Source: an uncultured Odoribacter sp.
GTDB lineage: Bacteria; Bacteroidota; Bacteroidia; Bacteroidales; Marinifilaceae
Assembly (NCBI GenBank): GCA_905204385.1
Contig: CAJKZL010000246.1
Coordinates: 1 to 5,511 of the forward strand
Length of the DNA stretch: 5,511 nucleotides
Direction: 5' to 3'
The first letter of the stretch is position 1, and each line of letters opens with the position of its first letter. Under the pieces are notes generated by a model. That model saw only the letters and a program-made list of their open reading frames with translations. It searched no databases and was not told the DNA's origin. The position numbers and the translations under genes were made by a program. This document shows, piece by piece, positions 1-5,511 of this stretch.

Positions 1-696
1 GTTGTGGTATCGGTAACAGAGAGCTCTGTCGTCGAGGTTTCCCACTTCAAAGTAACCCGCAGCAAACCGGTTATCGACCCATTCCATGATCTGTGGATTC
101 CGGAAAGTTGTTTTTTCCATTTGCCGGCAAGGTCCGCAGAAGTGTGATGAGAAACAAAGTATCATATTTTTGTTTTCCCGCTTTGCTTGTTCGAGTACCT
201 GTGAATAGGGGGTACGGTGTTGGAACAAGTGAGGGGGGATGGGAAGCGGAGGCACTGCGTCGGCAGCCAGGAGAGGACGTCCGGAGGTTCCGGTGGTGGC
301 TGTATTTAAGAATTTCAGCATTTGTCCTACGGTTAACGAGCCGGCTTCTTTCAGCACTTTTTCGTCCGGGGTGAGAATACAGAGGTGGGGGATCGAACCG
401 GCCCGGTCGGGATTTACTCTTTGTTGGAGAAGACCGTATTCCGGGAATTCGATGTCTGCCAATAAACAGATATAATGTTCGTCGGTATAGCGGATGACCC
501 GGTGATTTTCGAATACTGTTTTTTTCATCATCCGGCAGGGGCCGCACCAACTGGCCGTAAAATCGATAAACAGATGCTTGTTTTCTGCTTTCGCTTTTTT
601 CAGCGCCTCTTCGTAGGTTCCATTGAAAAAGTGGATCGCCTGGACTTGCTGCATCTGAGCCCATACTAAAAAGAAAAGCAGAGCAGCGGTTTTCAT
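1..696 (-). CDS. Exported tandem thioredoxin-like protein (3' end outside window)
   Basis: The frame is open from an ATG at 696 to the left edge: 232 codons without a stop, so the C-terminus is missing. Residues 1-20 look like a signal peptide (hydrophobic core LLFFLVW, likely cleavage after VQA), which predicts a periplasmic or envelope location. Two thioredoxin-like domains follow. The first has WCGPC with C51/C54 and a plausible cis-proline at P103 (SIPH). The second, from about residue 163, has FCGPC with C187/C190. The two align well (KAKAENKHLFIDF / QAKRENKNMILCF; CGPCRMMKKTVFEN / CGPCRQMEKTTFRN), which suggests internal duplication. A Pro-rich linker lies near residues 140-160. By family the likely role is thiol-disulfide exchange or disulfide reduction, but the substrate is unknown. 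It lies 101 bases after rnfA on the same strand, separated by a hairpin, so it may not share the rnf transcript. The domain call is firm, the physiological role open. Confidence 0.85.
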   Translation of the reverse strand, partial: MKTAALLFFLVWAQMQQVQAIHFFNGTYEEALKKAKAENKHLFIDFTASWCGPCRMMKKTVFENHRVIRYTDEHYICLLADIEFPEYGLLQQRVNPDRAGSIPHLCILTPDEKVLKEAGSLTVGQMLKFLNTATTGTSGRPLLAADAVPPLPIPPHLFQHRTPYSQVLEQAKRENKNMILCFSSHFCGPCRQMEKTTFRNPQIMEWVDNRFAAGYFEVGNLDDRALCYRYHN

Positions 697-715
697 AAGC
701 TTATCACATAAATAA

Positions 716-760
716 ATTCACCGGGATACAGGAAACTGAAGGGTGTGTATCCCGGTGAAT
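716..760 (-). terminator. Hairpin after rnfA, probable rho-independent terminator
   Basis: The arms 716-730 and 746-760 are perfect 15-bp inverted repeats (ATTCACCGGGATACA) around a 15-base loop. On the minus strand the stem is followed by a T-rich but interrupted run (TTATTTATG), so termination could be partial. It starts 37 bases past the rnfA stop, as expected for the end of the rnf operon. It also ends only 19 bases before the ATG of the thioredoxin-like gene, so it would lie in that gene's leader if transcription reads through. Confidence 0.7.
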
Positions 761-797
761 CGGTGAGTTTAAAAAATTTTATTTCGGAGTTTTCCGG

Positions 798-1370
798 TTA
801 GACGATACCGGAAAAACCCATAAACGCCATGGCCAGTAAGCCGGCTGTAACCAGGGCGATAGGAGAACCCTGCATGCCTTTCGGTACGGTGACCAATTCC
901 AGGTGTTCGCGGATGCCGGCGAAGATGGTCAGGGCCAGGCCGAAGCCGATGGCGGTTGAGGCGGCGAAAACCAGGGATTGCAGAAGATTGAAATCTTTCT
1001 GGATCACCATGATGGCAACGCCGAGTACGGCACAGTTGGTGGTGATCAAGGGCAGAAATACCCCCAAAGCCTGATACAAAGAAGGACTTACTTTTTTCAG
1101 GATGATCTCGACCATTTGTACCAGAGCGGCTATGATCAGGATAAAGGTGATGGTTTGCATAAAACCGATGTGGAAGGGATCGAGAACGGTTTTCTGTACG
1201 ATAAAGGTAACTAAAGTAGCCAGAATCATTACAAAGGTAACGGCGCCCGTCATTCCCAGCGCGGTAGATACTTTTTTGGAAACTCCCAGGAAGGGACAGA
1301 TGCCCAGGAATTGTGCCAATACAATGTTGTTAACGAATACGGCAGCTATAAATATCAAGATATATTCCAT
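798..1370 (-). CDS. rnfA: RnfA, membrane subunit of the Rnf electron transport complex
   Basis: This 190-residue protein has the usual RnfA/NqrE length and about six hydrophobic segments (roughly 1-21, 40-60, 71-90, 101-120, 131-152, 169-189). The family cysteines are present: C25 in FLGICPFLG and C113 in TTNCAVLG, in the pseudo-symmetric half-helices that with RnfE bind an iron or [2Fe-2S] centre in the membrane. Family knowledge places RnfA in the inner membrane, relaying electrons between cytoplasmic and periplasmic cofactors during ion translocation. It is the last gene of the operon, 57 bases after rnfE and followed by a hairpin. The leader before the ATG is A-rich and lacks a Shine-Dalgarno, as is common in Bacteroidetes. 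The order within the operon and the LGVS and GVAIMVIQKD contexts favour RnfA over its paralogue RnfE. I see no damage. Confidence 0.95.
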   Translation of the reverse strand: MEYILIFIAAVFVNNIVLAQFLGICPFLGVSKKVSTALGMTGAVTFVMILATLVTFIVQKTVLDPFHIGFMQTITFILIIAALVQMVEIILKKVSPSLYQALGVFLPLITTNCAVLGVAIMVIQKDFNLLQSLVFAASTAIGFGLALTIFAGIREHLELVTVPKGMQGSPIALVTAGLLAMAFMGFSGIV

Positions 1371-1392
1371 GTCTGTTTAGATTTTTTGATTT

Positions 1393-1425
1393 AAAACCGG
1401 ATTTAGCATTCAATTTGCCGGTTTT
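1393..1425 (-). repeat. Small inverted repeat between rnfE and rnfA
   Basis: AAAACCGG at 1393-1400 and CCGGTTTT at 1418-1425 could form an 8-bp stem with a 17-base loop in the 57-base gap. On the minus strand it is followed by an A-rich, not a T-rich, stretch, so it is unlikely to be a terminator. An mRNA stability or processing element is possible but unproven, and chance is not excluded. Confidence 0.35.
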
Positions 1426-1427
1426 GA

Positions 1428-2015
1428 TTAATTTGCCTTTCTGAGCCGGTTGACGACAGCAATCAGATAACCGAGTGCAATAAACGCTCCGGGAGCGAGT
1501 ACAAAAATCAACATGCCGTAGTTTTCGTTAAAAACGGGCAGGTTAAAGGCCTTGCCGCTTCCCAGTAGTTCGCGGATCACGCCCAAGATCGTCAGACTCA
1601 AGGTGAATCCCAATCCCATACCCAGACCGTCGAGCATGGAAGGCAAGGCTTTGTTTTTGGAGGCGAATGCCTCTGCGCGGCCTAAAACAATGCAGTTGAC
1701 CACGATCAGGGGGATAAAGAGGCCTAAGGATTCGTGCAGGGAAGGCAGATAGGCTGCCATGCACATGTCGACCACCGTTACGAAGGCGGCGATGATGACG
1801 ATAAACGAGGGAATCCGGATTTTATCCGGTATGATGTTGGCAACGAGGGAAATGACCAGATTGGACATGACCAGCACAAAGGCTGTCGCCAGGCCCATTC
1901 CCATTCCGTTGACGGCAGAGGTGGTGACTCCCAAAGTGGGACACATCCCCAGCAGTAAGGCGAAAGTGGGATTTTCCCGGAATATACCGTTGGTTAAGAC
2001 TTTTATGTTATTCAT
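1428..2015 (-). CDS. rnfE: RnfE, membrane subunit of the Rnf electron transport complex
   Basis: This 195-residue hydrophobic protein is a paralogue of RnfA. It opens with the RnfE-type FRENPTFALLLGMCPTLGVT, and the family cysteines are C25 (GMCPTL) and C108 (VVNCIVLGRAEAFAS). The second segment is a strong RnfE/NqrD signature. Membrane segments lie near 37-60, 69-90, 95-115, 130-150 and 168-188. By family it pairs with RnfA around the membrane iron-sulfur centre and takes part in coupling electron flow to Na+ or H+ transport. The ATG at 2015 sits in an A-rich leader without a Shine-Dalgarno and leaves a 54-base gap after rnfG. The basic C-terminus (VVNRLRKAN) is expected on the cytoplasmic side. 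An extra cysteine, C85 (VDMCMAAYL), lies in a helix. The protein appears complete. Confidence 0.95.
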   Translation of the reverse strand: MNNIKVLTNGIFRENPTFALLLGMCPTLGVTTSAVNGMGMGLATAFVLVMSNLVISLVANIIPDKIRIPSFIVIIAAFVTVVDMCMAAYLPSLHESLGLFIPLIVVNCIVLGRAEAFASKNKALPSMLDGLGMGLGFTLSLTILGVIRELLGSGKAFNLPVFNENYGMLIFVLAPGAFIALGYLIAVVNRLRKAN

Positions 2016-2069
2016 GGTTAAGAATTTTGTGGTTTAATTTTAAATCGCCGATGAATTTTAACTCCGTCC

Positions 2070-2684
2070 TTAATGGTTTTGTTGGGTTGCCCCGGAGGAA
2101 ACGTCAGCTCCCGACAGGCCTTCGGCGGCACGGTTGACGGCATCCAGAAATGCTCTGGACGATATTGTGGCAGCGGTGATGGCATCGACGTCTCCGCCGT
2201 CTTTGCTGACTTTCAGTCCCGTTGTGCCCGGTTTTTTACCGATGATGCTTCCTTTGCCGTTTTGCGTAAACCAAAGGTCCATTTTGGAGCCCAGACCCGG
2301 CGTTTCTTTGTGTTCGAGTACCGAGTAATTGGAGATGGTGCCGTCGGGGTTAAAACCGACCATCAACCATACTTTTCCACCGAATCCGTTGTTGGTGTAA
2401 GTTTTAACGGCAGTACCCACCAGAGTACCGTTCTTTTTGGCGGGATAAAATTCCAGTTCGCCTCCGTCGGGCGTTTTTGCTTTCCAGACATCGGCATTGG
2501 GGTCGTTGTCGAATTCTCCGGGGATCACCTGACGGATTGCGTTGACTTGTTTTGCTTGCTTAGCCTCCTCTATGGGGCCGGCCGTCAGGGTATAGACGTA
2601 GCCCACCGCTGCCGAAGCGATCAGGGTGACAGCAAACAGAACTACCACCATGTTTATAAAGTTCGATTCTAATTTCTTTCCCAT
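2070..2684 (-). CDS. rnfG: RnfG, membrane-anchored flavoprotein subunit of Rnf
   Basis: This protein has 204 residues: one N-terminal membrane anchor (about 11-34) and an extracytoplasmic FMN-binding domain (about 70-185). Family landmarks are VLEHKETPGLGSK (122-134) and the flavinylation site DAITAAT (167-173), in which T173 should carry FMN through a phosphoester bond made by ApbE. The usual form is D-x-x-S/T-G-A-T, so alanine stands where glycine is common. In the complex RnfG passes electrons on the outer face of the membrane together with RnfD. The short tail after residue 188 is polar and ends with a second DVSSGAT (194-200). The gene lies between rnfD (71-base gap) and rnfE (54-base gap). 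The ATG at 2684 is chosen because it gives the standard MGKKLESNFINM start before the anchor. Confidence 0.95.
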   Translation of the reverse strand: MGKKLESNFINMVVVLFAVTLIASAAVGYVYTLTAGPIEEAKQAKQVNAIRQVIPGEFDNDPNADVWKAKTPDGGELEFYPAKKNGTLVGTAVKTYTNNGFGGKVWLMVGFNPDGTISNYSVLEHKETPGLGSKMDLWFTQNGKGSIIGKKPGTTGLKVSKDGGDVDAITAATISSRAFLDAVNRAAEGLSGADVSSGATQQNH

Positions 2685-2755
2685 CGTATCTATGTTTTTG
2701 ATTCTGGTCTCAGCTTTTTGATTTCTTCCGGAAACCTAAAGCTTCTGCCCTAAAT

Positions 2756-3739
2756 TTAAGCAAACCTTACCGGTTTGCAGTATCTATTGATTAAAGGTGT
2801 AAAGGCATTCATAATCAATATGGCGAAGGACATGCCTTCGGGATATGCGCCGAATACGCGAATGACAACCGTCAGTATGCCGATGCCGGCTCCGTAGATG
2901 ATCATTCCTTTGTGGGTCATCGGAGAAGTTACGTAATCCGTGGCCATAAAGATCGCCCCGAGCATCATACCCCCCGAAAGAAGGTGGAAGAGGGGACCGG
3001 CATATTGTTCGGGATTGCAAAGGTTCAGTATGCCCGAAAAGAGGATCACTGTAGCAAAGATGGCGACCGGGATGTGCCAGGAAATAATTTTGCGGATCAG
3101 CATATAGGCAAATCCGATGAGCAGGGCCAGGGCCGCTACTTCGCCGAGGCTGCCTCCCATGTGGCCGATCAACATGTTTTTATATCCGACAAACGTATCG
3201 GCCGATAACAGATCGGTGACCGATTGTCCCGTTTTTACGGCTTCTTTCAGCAATCCCAGGGGAGTGGCTCCGGTTTCGGCATCCACGTACGAACCGGCGA
3301 AACCTTTGGCTAACGGCCAGGTGGTCATTTGCACCGGAAAGGAGATCAATAAAAATACGCGGCCTACTAAAGCAGGGTTGAAAATGTTGCAACCCAGACC
3401 GCCGAAACTCATTTTGCCGATTCCGATGGCTACCAAGGCACCGATGACAACGATCCATACCGGTAGGTTGGAAGGCAGGTTGAAGGCCAGAAGAACGCCG
3501 GTGATGAGGGCGGAACCGTCGAAAATCGTCGGTTGTTGCTTCATCAGATATTTTTGAATCGCATATTCGAAGAGAAGACAAGCCACCACAGACGTCAGCG
3601 TTACGATAATAGCCCCCAGGCCGAAAAAGAATACGGAACAGACGAATGCCGGGATAAGGGCTATAAGAACTCCGTACATGTTTTTCTCAATGGAGTCGCC
3701 ACTGTGAACATGAGGAGAAGGAGAAATTAATAAATTCAT
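2756..3739 (-). CDS. rnfD: RnfD, membrane flavoprotein subunit of Rnf
   Basis: At 327 residues it has the normal length for RnfD/NqrB-type subunits. Family blocks in order are an SPSPHVHSGDSIEKNM start, FDGSALITGVLLAFNLP (73-89), GGLGCNIFNPALVGRVFL (113-130), the flavinylation motif TGATPL with T159 as the expected FMN acceptor, GHMGGSLGE (192-200), FMATDYVTSP (264-273) and YPEGMSFAILIMNAFTPLI (299-317). About nine or ten hydrophobic helices surround these. By family the protein sits in the inner membrane, carries covalent FMN added by ApbE, and forms part of the ion-translocating core. Its ATG lies in a very AT-rich leader without a Shine-Dalgarno. The 93-base gap to the true end of the rnfC frame is the widest inside the operon. 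I see no defect. Confidence 0.96.
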   Translation of the reverse strand: MNLLISPSPHVHSGDSIEKNMYGVLIALIPAFVCSVFFFGLGAIIVTLTSVVACLLFEYAIQKYLMKQQPTIFDGSALITGVLLAFNLPSNLPVWIVVIGALVAIGIGKMSFGGLGCNIFNPALVGRVFLLISFPVQMTTWPLAKGFAGSYVDAETGATPLGLLKEAVKTGQSVTDLLSADTFVGYKNMLIGHMGGSLGEVAALALLIGFAYMLIRKIISWHIPVAIFATVILFSGILNLCNPEQYAGPLFHLLSGGMMLGAIFMATDYVTSPMTHKGMIIYGAGIGILTVVIRVFGAYPEGMSFAILIMNAFTPLINRYCKPVRFA

Positions 3740-3776
3740 ATTTTATGATATTAATTGTATAATTGAATTGATGAAG

Positions 3777-3837
3777 AATAATGCACGGAATACAATAATC
3801 CTACTCCGAAGAAACTTTTAACGGTTCCTGCATTATT
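3777..3837 (-). repeat. Inverted repeat spanning the end of the rnfC frame and the rnfC-rnfD gap
   Basis: AATAATGCA at 3777-3785 pairs with TGCATTATT at 3829-3837. After one unpaired base (3786), GGAA at 3787-3790 pairs with TTCC at 3825-3828. The loop is 34 bases. The outer arm overlaps the distal rnfC stop codon (3833-3835). No T-run follows on the minus strand, so it does not look like a standard terminator. It may be an mRNA processing or stability structure, or chance in AT-rich DNA. Confidence 0.35.
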
Positions 3838-3973
3838 TCTTTCGGTTTCTGATCATCATCCCGGTCCGGCCTTTTCCCAGACGGATGTAATCCAGCAGGG
3901 GACGGGCGGAAGGACAGGTGAAACTACATGAACCACATTCGATACAATACATTACCTTTTCTTCCAACATGCG
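3833..3973 (-). pseudogene. rnfC: Detached C-terminal part of rnfC with the second [4Fe-4S] motif
   Basis: Directly after the TAA that ends the upstream rnfC reading, the same frame stays open for 46 codons and closes at a second TAA (3833-3835). It begins with CGC ATG TTG GAA GAA. The encoded peptide is typical of the RnfC C-terminus: VMYCIECGSCSFTCP holds a complete C-x2-C-x2-C-x3-C cluster motif (codons 407, 410, 413, 417 of the joined frame), followed by RPLLDYIRLGKG. Joined across the stop, the protein would have 443 positions, close to the usual RnfC length in this group. No shift of frame is needed, so one nonsense codon separates the parts. An ATG at 3970, two codons past the stop, could allow restart and a 45-residue peptide, but I see no Shine-Dalgarno for it. 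Alternatives are readthrough or a base error in the sequence. Confidence 0.85.
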
Positions 3974-5164
3974 TTACAGCAAATTGAAAGAAGCTAATTT
4001 AGCCAACAGGTAAGGTTCGAGCCCCATGGGACACACCGAAACGCATTTACTGCAGCGGATACAGTTTCGTACCGGTTTGCGTTCAGCTTCTCCGGCGCCG
4101 ATCAGCAACACCCCACTGGTTCCCTTCATAATGGGGGAATCGATATTTACCATTGTTCGGCCCATCATGGGACCTCCTCCGATGACTTTGGCCGTATCGT
4201 CCGGCATGCTCCCGGCAGCTTCGATTAATTTCGAAACAGGGGTGCCGATGCGGCAAAGATAATTACCGGGATTTTTCACAGACTTGCCTGTCACGGTGAC
4301 CACGCGCTCGACAAGGGGTTTGTGCTTGACGACGGCTTCGTAGACGGCTAAGGCTGTCCCCACGTTTTGAACCACCGCACCTACGGCAATGGGCAGCGCT
4401 CCGGAAGGTACCCTCCGTCCGACCGTAGCCTGGATGAGTTGTTTTTCACCTCCCTGGGGATATTTTACTTTTAGCGGACAGATTTCCACACCCAGCACTT
4501 TGGCTGCAATGCCCTGCAAGTGGGCGATGGCGTCTTTTTTGTTGTTTTCGATGCCGATGACGGCTTTTTTTACATCTATGGCTTTCATCAGCAGTTGCAC
4601 GCCGATGATGACTTCTTCAGCCCTTTCTAGCATCACCCGGTGATCGGAAGTCAGATAAGGTTCGCACTCCACGCCGTTGATGATGAGCATCTCTGCCTTT
4701 TTTCCCGGAGGTACGGAGAGTTTCACCTGGGTCGGAAAGGTGGCTCCGCCGAGGCCTACGACGCCGGCGGCGGCGATTTTGGCGATGATTTCTTTCGGTT
4801 CCAGCGTGCACTCTTTAATCAGGGTGTCGGTCCGGTCGATGGCCGGGTTCCATTCGTCGCCTTCGACCGCGATCGTTACGGGCGGTTTGCGCGGGTTGCC
4901 TCCGTCGGGGACCGCGTCCACGCCGGTTACGGTTCCCGATACCGAGCTGTGGATATTGGCCGAAACGAATCCCGTCGCGGTTCCGATAATGTCGCCGACC
5001 CGTACCTTGTCGCCTTTTTTGACGGCGGCCGTGGCCGGAGCGCCGATATGCTGTCCCAGCGGAATGGTCGCTGTTTTCGGTACGTCGAAAATCCGGATGG
5101 CCGCGTCTTTGCTGATCTTATGGTCGTGCGGGTGGACGCCACCCAGTCTGAAAGTCTTAAGCAT
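3974..5164 (-). CDS. rnfC: RnfC, NADH/FMN/iron-sulfur subunit of Rnf, ended early by an in-frame TAA
   Basis: 396 residues are read before TAA at 3974-3976. RnfC is the peripheral cytoplasmic subunit that exchanges electrons with NAD(H) through FMN and iron-sulfur clusters. Seen in order are the N-terminal barrel-sandwich region (HPHDHKISKD at 11-20, SSVSGTVTGV near 73-82), the NuoF-like nucleotide/FMN loop GLGGATFPT (137-145), INGVECEPYLTSDHR (162-176), YPQGGEKQLI (235-244), an SLBB-like region (about 285-325) and the first cluster motif CIRCSKCVSVCP (C368, C371, C374, C378). The second cluster motif lies beyond the stop in the same frame. The ATG at 5164 overlaps the rnfB end by 8 bases and follows a strong Shine-Dalgarno. 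The 5' third is about 60% GC and the 3' part clearly lower. If the stop is real and not bypassed, the product lacks one cluster and Rnf function is doubtful. Confidence 0.93.
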   Translation of the reverse strand: MLKTFRLGGVHPHDHKISKDAAIRIFDVPKTATIPLGQHIGAPATAAVKKGDKVRVGDIIGTATGFVSANIHSSVSGTVTGVDAVPDGGNPRKPPVTIAVEGDEWNPAIDRTDTLIKECTLEPKEIIAKIAAAGVVGLGGATFPTQVKLSVPPGKKAEMLIINGVECEPYLTSDHRVMLERAEEVIIGVQLLMKAIDVKKAVIGIENNKKDAIAHLQGIAAKVLGVEICPLKVKYPQGGEKQLIQATVGRRVPSGALPIAVGAVVQNVGTALAVYEAVVKHKPLVERVVTVTGKSVKNPGNYLCRIGTPVSKLIEAAGSMPDDTAKVIGGGPMMGRTMVNIDSPIMKGTSGVLLIGAGEAERKPVRNCIRCSKCVSVCPMGLEPYLLAKLASFNLL

Positions 5165-5511
5165 GTTGTTCCCCTCCTTCCTCTGCGGTTTTGGTTTCCT
5201 GCGCCGGTGCGGTTTCCGTTGCGGCGGCGGTTTTGGCGGCCGGTTGTGCGGCTTCGGCCGGTTTCGGAGCCGGTTTTTCGGCCGGACGCGGCGGGAAGTT
5301 CACCTCCACGATGGCCCCTGTCGGACAAACGGCCACGCACTTGCGGCACAGACGGCATTTGGCCGGGTCGATATAAGCCACGTTGTTTTCCAGCGTAATG
5401 GCTTCGAACGGGCAGGTTTTCACGCATTTGCCGCACCCGATACAGCCTACCGAGCAGGCTTTGCGGGTGACGGCTCCTTTGTCCTTATTGACGCAGTTCA
5501 CATATACCCGG
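5157..5511 (-). CDS. rnfB: RnfB, ferredoxin-type iron-sulfur subunit of Rnf (5' part outside window)
   Basis: The frame is open to the right edge, so only the C-terminal 117 residues are visible. The GTG at 5501 is an internal valine (RVYVNCVNKDKG), not a start. Two ferredoxin motifs are intact: CIGCGKCVKTCP followed by FEAI, and CRLCRKCVAVCP followed by TGAI, each able to bind a [4Fe-4S] cluster. The N-terminal membrane helix and the proximal four-cysteine motif of RnfB must lie outside. By family RnfB is the entry point for electrons from reduced ferredoxin. After the second cluster comes a Pro/Ala/Glu-rich tail of about 45 residues (from PPRPAEKPAPKPAEAA), low in complexity and probably disordered. 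The stop codon overlaps the start of rnfC by 8 bases, which suggests coupled translation. Confidence 0.95.
   Translation of the reverse strand, partial: RVYVNCVNKDKGAVTRKACSVGCIGCGKCVKTCPFEAITLENNVAYIDPAKCRLCRKCVAVCPTGAIVEVNFPPRPAEKPAPKPAEAAQPAAKTAAATETAPAQETKTAEEGGEQHA
5173..5178 (-). promoter_or_regulatory. Strong Shine-Dalgarno (AGGAGG) for rnfC inside the rnfB end
   Basis: On the minus strand AGGAGG lies 8 bases before the rnfC ATG (5162-5164), within codons for the EEGGEQHA end of RnfB. It supports the ATG at 5164 as the start. The other starts in the window (rnfD, rnfG, rnfE, rnfA and the thioredoxin-like gene) have A- or AT-rich leaders without such a motif. Confidence 0.65.

Follow-up and report, generated by a model that had tools for sequence, protein, structure and literature searches.

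The rnfC gene in the window (the whole 5,511-base contig that was analysed) is a mosaic of sequence from two bacterial families, with its breakpoint between codons 159 and 173, and it contains an internal TAA stop codon in a frame that is otherwise open. Comparison of each part with its own relatives makes it very likely that the window is a misassembled metagenome contig from two species, in which the stop would represent local wrong bases or, less likely, the dead allele of one strain. The letters of the stop are real, but on present evidence it is more likely a product of assembly and sequencing than a real biological feature.

The rnfC reading frame and its operon

Translated on the minus strand, 3833-5164 yielded 443 positions before the final stop; the only interruption is a stop at codon 397 (3976-3974), and the frame does not shift (Table 1). 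This confirms the original prediction that a single in-frame TAA splits rnfC with its frame unshifted. The codons following the TAA read RMLEEKVMYCIECGSCSFTCPSARPLLDYIRLGKGRTGMMIRNRKK, and the 46 codons behind it include a complete second cysteine motif. Against the TIGR01945 profile, codons 1-396 scored 488.6 bits, above the family cut-off of 245.95, and the tail open reading frame (ORF) scored 41.8 bits. The total of 443 positions had been put forward as a normal RnfC size; it is indeed the right one, because 102 of the 119 RnfC homologues listed (best 120 of 8,000 scored, with the window's own protein excluded) are exactly 443 amino acids (aa) long. As written, no single chain carries a ferredoxin domain with two [4Fe-4S] clusters: the stop comes between the first motif and the second. 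The gene therefore resembles RnfC (TIGR01945), the NADH-side subunit of the Rnf complex, in that both pieces match the family, the frame spans 443 positions, and the neighbours rnfB, rnfD, rnfG, rnfE, and rnfA are the usual ones. It differs in being interrupted at codon 397, in having two parents, and in a translation that ends before the second cysteine motif.

Table 1. Features of the window, with strand and the evidence on which each was assigned
Feature	Position	Strand	Basis
Rikenella microfusus-like segment: 3' end of rnfB and rnfC codons 1-159	4688..5511	minus	DNA and protein identity, GC
Breakpoint interval LIINGVECEPYLT, rnfC codons 160-172	4649..4687	minus	Same in R. microfusus, P0002, and P0003
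Odoribacter-like segment: rnfC codons 173-443, rnfD, rnfG, rnfE, rnfA, partial two-CGPC gene	1..4648	minus	Identity to relatives
rnfB 3' end, Rikenella-like, cut by contig end	5157..5510	minus	96.6% over 117 aa to L002
rnfC mosaic reading frame, 443 codons with a single in-frame stop inside	3833..5164	minus	Translation and TIGR01945 profile match
In-frame TAA, codon 397	3974..3976	minus	Linker between both CxxCxxCxxxC motifs
30-nt patch with three private codons (397 stop, 400 Leu, 406 Tyr)	3947..3976	minus	Comparison with P0002, loci, and 102 proteins
Tail ORF, 45 codons from ATG, with second [4Fe-4S] motif	3833..3970	minus	Open reading frame
rnfD, intact	2756..3739	minus	TIGR01946, 396.3 bits
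rnfG, intact	2070..2684	minus	TIGR01947, 152.1 bits; 203/204 equal to P0155
rnfE, intact	1428..2015	minus	TIGR01948, 273.9 bits; 95% to best locus, L001
rnfA, intact	798..1370	minus	TIGR01943, 274.5 bits; 97% to best locus, L003
Partial gene with two CGPC motifs, downstream of rnfA	1-696	minus	Assigned to the Odoribacter-like segment by linkage only

The final stop is TAA in rnfA, rnfE, rnfG, rnfD, rnfB, and rnfC. In a recoded genetic code TAA would be expected inside genes and not at their ends; here six rnf genes end in it, and the earlier judgement that general recoding of TAA is unlikely was borne out. The CGPC sites of the partial gene downstream of rnfA are presumably thioredoxin-like. 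Among 99 loci, many of which may stop short, this gene found two short matches only (18 and 30 residues).

A mosaic of two bacterial families

Over residues 1-150, the window's RnfC shares 97.3% identity with R. microfusus, and no listed homologue outside the Rikenella-like group exceeds 62.7%. In contrast, residues 151-396 share 98.8% identity with P0002, and over residues 173-443 the two proteins are equal at 267 of 271 positions. P0002, the nearest relative of the Odoribacter-like side, is an intact RnfC of 443 aa; it differs from the window's protein in being full length, in having another N-terminus, and in containing no stop. In a three-way comparison, the window sided with R. microfusus rather than P0002 at 61 sites, ending at residue 159, and with P0002 rather than R. 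microfusus at 104 sites, all at residue 173 or beyond save residue 157. At that exception the window has Ala, which it shares with Rikenella-like proteins such as P0041 and P0095, as strain variation would allow. With the last Rikenella-only site at 159 and P0002-only sites from 173, the switch must fall within residues 160-172, that is, within LIINGVECEPYLT. A first look against the 443-aa proteins had given 34 private positions in the window's RnfC, 30 of them within residues 1-159; divergence as the cause of these 30 was dropped when their Rikenella origin was found.

The same switch is visible in the DNA. The R. microfusus genome (G006) matched the window over 973 bases at 93% identity, a match that extends some 150 bases beyond the join and includes an exact common run of 178 nt (4881-4704). 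By 50-nt block, identity to R. microfusus was 0.88-1.00 from position 5511 to 4712 and then 0.92 and 0.72; below 4612, it was 0.42-0.76 in 17 of 20 blocks (0.38, 0.00, and 0.82 in the other three). Past the join there was no close match: the Odoribacter-like segment was matched by R. microfusus in four pieces only, at 64-77%. The rnfC frame of R. microfusus itself (locus L002), unlike that of the window, is open over 465 codons with no internal stop. GC content, calculated by 250-base block, was 0.52-0.55 in the three blocks of 4001-4750 and 0.60-0.63 in the three above. The window thus consists of two segments closest to different species with a sharp switch between them, the pattern of a chimeric contig. 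Its RnfC is a singleton, listed on one 5,511-base contig; the window has the same length and is therefore taken to be that entire contig, with the join 824 bases from its end.

The organism that carries P0002 was sought in 8 genomes of the genus (Odoribacter) and then in 56 genomes of the family and was not found in them; the best identities in those 8 and 56 genomes were 87% (protein) and 76% (DNA) over long matches, with pieces of 45-240 bases reaching 87%. The RnfG of the window differs from P0155 at one residue of 204. P0155 and P0002 probably lie on one contig, to judge from the equal size of the longest contigs listed for each (76,447 bases). Locus L003, from a metagenome-assembled genome titled 'Bacteroides sp. 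isolate S18_Bin4', is 97% (rnfA) and 91% (rnfC tail) identical to the Odoribacter-like side of the window. It is as close to that side as named Odoribacter are, and its Bacteroides label may be wrong.

Codon 397 in relatives and the private changes around it

Codon 397 is a sense codon in 80 of 80 genome loci (best 80 of 325), where it encodes D (41 loci), E (26), T (4), P (4), A (3), or Q (2), and no stop codon occurred within the matched stretch of any of these 80. Among the 119 listed homologues (best 120 of 8,000 scored), 115 have both cysteine motifs and hence reach past 397; the other four (P0038, P0071, P0075, and P0097) end before it. These results count against two explanations offered in the original prediction. 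A recent loss of full-length RnfC in the lineage is at odds with the intact P0002, and readthrough is at odds with a codon that is sense in every locus and in all listed homologues that extend so far; in a readthrough gene, the stop would be conserved among relatives together with the extension. The third explanation, a wrong base, appears best supported, although it has to be widened to a chimeric contig with a patch of private changes. A literature search for RnfC stop codons in Bacteroides returned nothing relevant, as judged by title. The entries P0075 and P0097 both end in IGRAHV, which resembles what we take to be a translated Illumina adapter; these ends may reflect adapter read-in in public catalogues.

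Between residues 173 and 443, the window differs from P0002 at four positions: 319, 397 (the stop), 400, and 406. Three of the four fall within 10 codons, which random placement reproduced in 1.1% of 200,000 trials (chance 0.011), in a test chosen after the cluster had been noticed. Leu400 and Tyr406 are absent from the 102 homologues that are 443 aa long, which at each position agree on a single acidic residue, and 48 of 48 (position 400) and 85 of 86 (position 406) aligned loci, duplicate genomes included, share another residue there. The C-terminus behind the stop had been described as conserved and intact; this holds for the second cysteine motif, which is complete, but not for these two residues. 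Conserved positions were then defined as those with the same residue in at least 95% of relatives' loci (between 70 and 99 loci depending on the gene, with some genomes contributing more than one). In RnfC, such positions carried private residues in 0/41 cases for the N-terminus, 1/84 for the middle, and 2/19 for the tail, whereas rnfA (0/79), rnfE (0/82), rnfG (0/36), rnfD (0/91), and the rnfB part (0/24) had none. By these counts, 3947..3976 appears to be the most error-like stretch of the contig.

Origin of the join and of the stop

We propose that reads of a Rikenella microfusus-like bacterium would have supplied the rnfB end and rnfC codons 1-159, that reads of an Odoribacter-like bacterium would have supplied rnfC codons 173-443 and rnfDGEA, and that the two read sets would have been fused at the conserved coding stretch LIINGVECEPYLT. 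A shared word permitting such a misjoin is something we infer from protein identity only. The TAA would belong to the Odoribacter-like side, within the 30-nt patch of three private codons, and the patch would most likely be a local run of wrong bases from thin coverage or poor reads, with a genuine dead allele of a single strain as the main, though less likely, rival. We infer that both join and patch arose in sequencing or assembly and not in a cell. Each side lies near its own closest relative, as expected for joined reads of two community members. Where related species share k-mers, short-read metagenome assembly is known to produce chimeric contigs (PMC7299287). The window resembles such contigs in that its nearest species changes abruptly within a conserved stretch of a gene, in the position of this change near the contig end, and in being a singleton; it differs in that the case here is one of sequence comparison and not of read-level proof. 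Against a misjoin, the reading frame is preserved across the join, and natural homologous recombination would likewise use a conserved stretch. Beyond the patch, moreover, the contig looks clean (0 private changes in the other genes and 4 of 271 residues differing from P0002), which speaks somewhat against poor data in general.

The join may be artefactual and the stop nonetheless a real nonsense mutation in one Odoribacter-like strain, leaving a truncated, inactive RnfC. The near absence of unusual residues on the Odoribacter-like side outside the patch favours this possibility, but the stop is private among the 80 genome loci, and two more private changes at nearly invariant residues lie no more than 10 codons away. 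We consider it unlikely, and as a sub-case of the misjoin it lies inside the high probability given to that explanation. Alternatively, an Odoribacter-like strain could have gained the rnfB-rnfC 5' region of Rikenella by homologous recombination, after which rnfC acquired a nonsense mutation and drifted. If real, such a recombinant would represent exchange between families inside an energy-metabolism operon. The frame is continuous through the join, rnfB stands directly ahead of rnfC in R. microfusus and in the Odoribacter-like loci L001, L003, and L094, and the private changes beside the stop could reflect relaxed constraint. However, the sequence is a singleton whose sole contig ends 824 bases past the join; the private changes at conserved sites are confined to the 30-nt patch and residue 319, with none elsewhere in the operon; and both sides are so near their closest relatives that both events would necessarily be recent. 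This history is improbable. Still less probable is a contig that is genuine as it stands, from an Odoribacter-like gut bacterium with Rikenella rnfB and the 5' third of rnfC, a truncated RnfC, and a tail that is lost or made separately; if it were true, Rnf in that strain would be rewired or switched off. Before any biological reading, a lone metagenome contig with one broken gene needs piecewise comparison with relatives.

Programmed readthrough or recoding of the TAA would restore a full-length RnfC, and the kept frame and the complete second cluster motif behind the stop are compatible with it; the use of TAA at the ends of all six rnf genes in the window and the absence of any stop from the matched stretches of the 80 genome loci leave this a negligible chance. 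An equally negligible chance attaches to a split RnfC, in which separate translation from the ATG located three bases beyond the TAA would give a 45-codon tail that pairs with the truncated protein. Reinitiation could work at this distance of one codon past the TAA, and P0141 (49 aa, on a 1,091-base contig) starts at 395, four codons before the tail Met. The same ATG, however, is the ordinary Met399 of P0002 and P0003, two nearly invariant residues are altered in the tail, and 26 of the 34 short proteins found with the tail start at residue 380 and not at 399. Readthrough, a split gene, and general TAA recoding were rejected on comparison with relatives and on the TAA gene ends, and lineage-wide loss is likewise not supported.

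If the stop were real, an end at codon 396 would remove the second CxxCxxCxxxC motif, and at least one cluster could therefore not form. Truncation would harm both clusters, since each motif in a two-cluster ferredoxin domain usually lends its last cysteine to the partner cluster. The shortened protein would very probably have no activity. P0002 aligns to chain 7zc6_C, the RnfC of Clostridium tetanomorphum, over residues 2-432 of 443 (E = 1.2e-125). At its C-terminus, the C. tetanomorphum protein has a ferredoxin domain whose two [4Fe-4S] clusters are the proposed electron path to the NAD+-reducing FMN (PMC9588780).

Of the 34 short proteins found with the RnfC tail (P0121-P0154), none represents an RnfC tail starting at the Met behind the stop. 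By motif count, their starts fall at 380 in 26 proteins, at 388 in 3, and at 374, 390, 395, and 399 in one each; P0153 is without the full motif pattern. P0133, the protein with a start at 399, was rejected as a free-standing RnfC tail, as its opening residues resemble those of a ferredoxin in its own right and not RnfC. Most of the 26 proteins that start at 380 begin with MGLEPY, and these starts may mark upstream contig ends or frame breaks.
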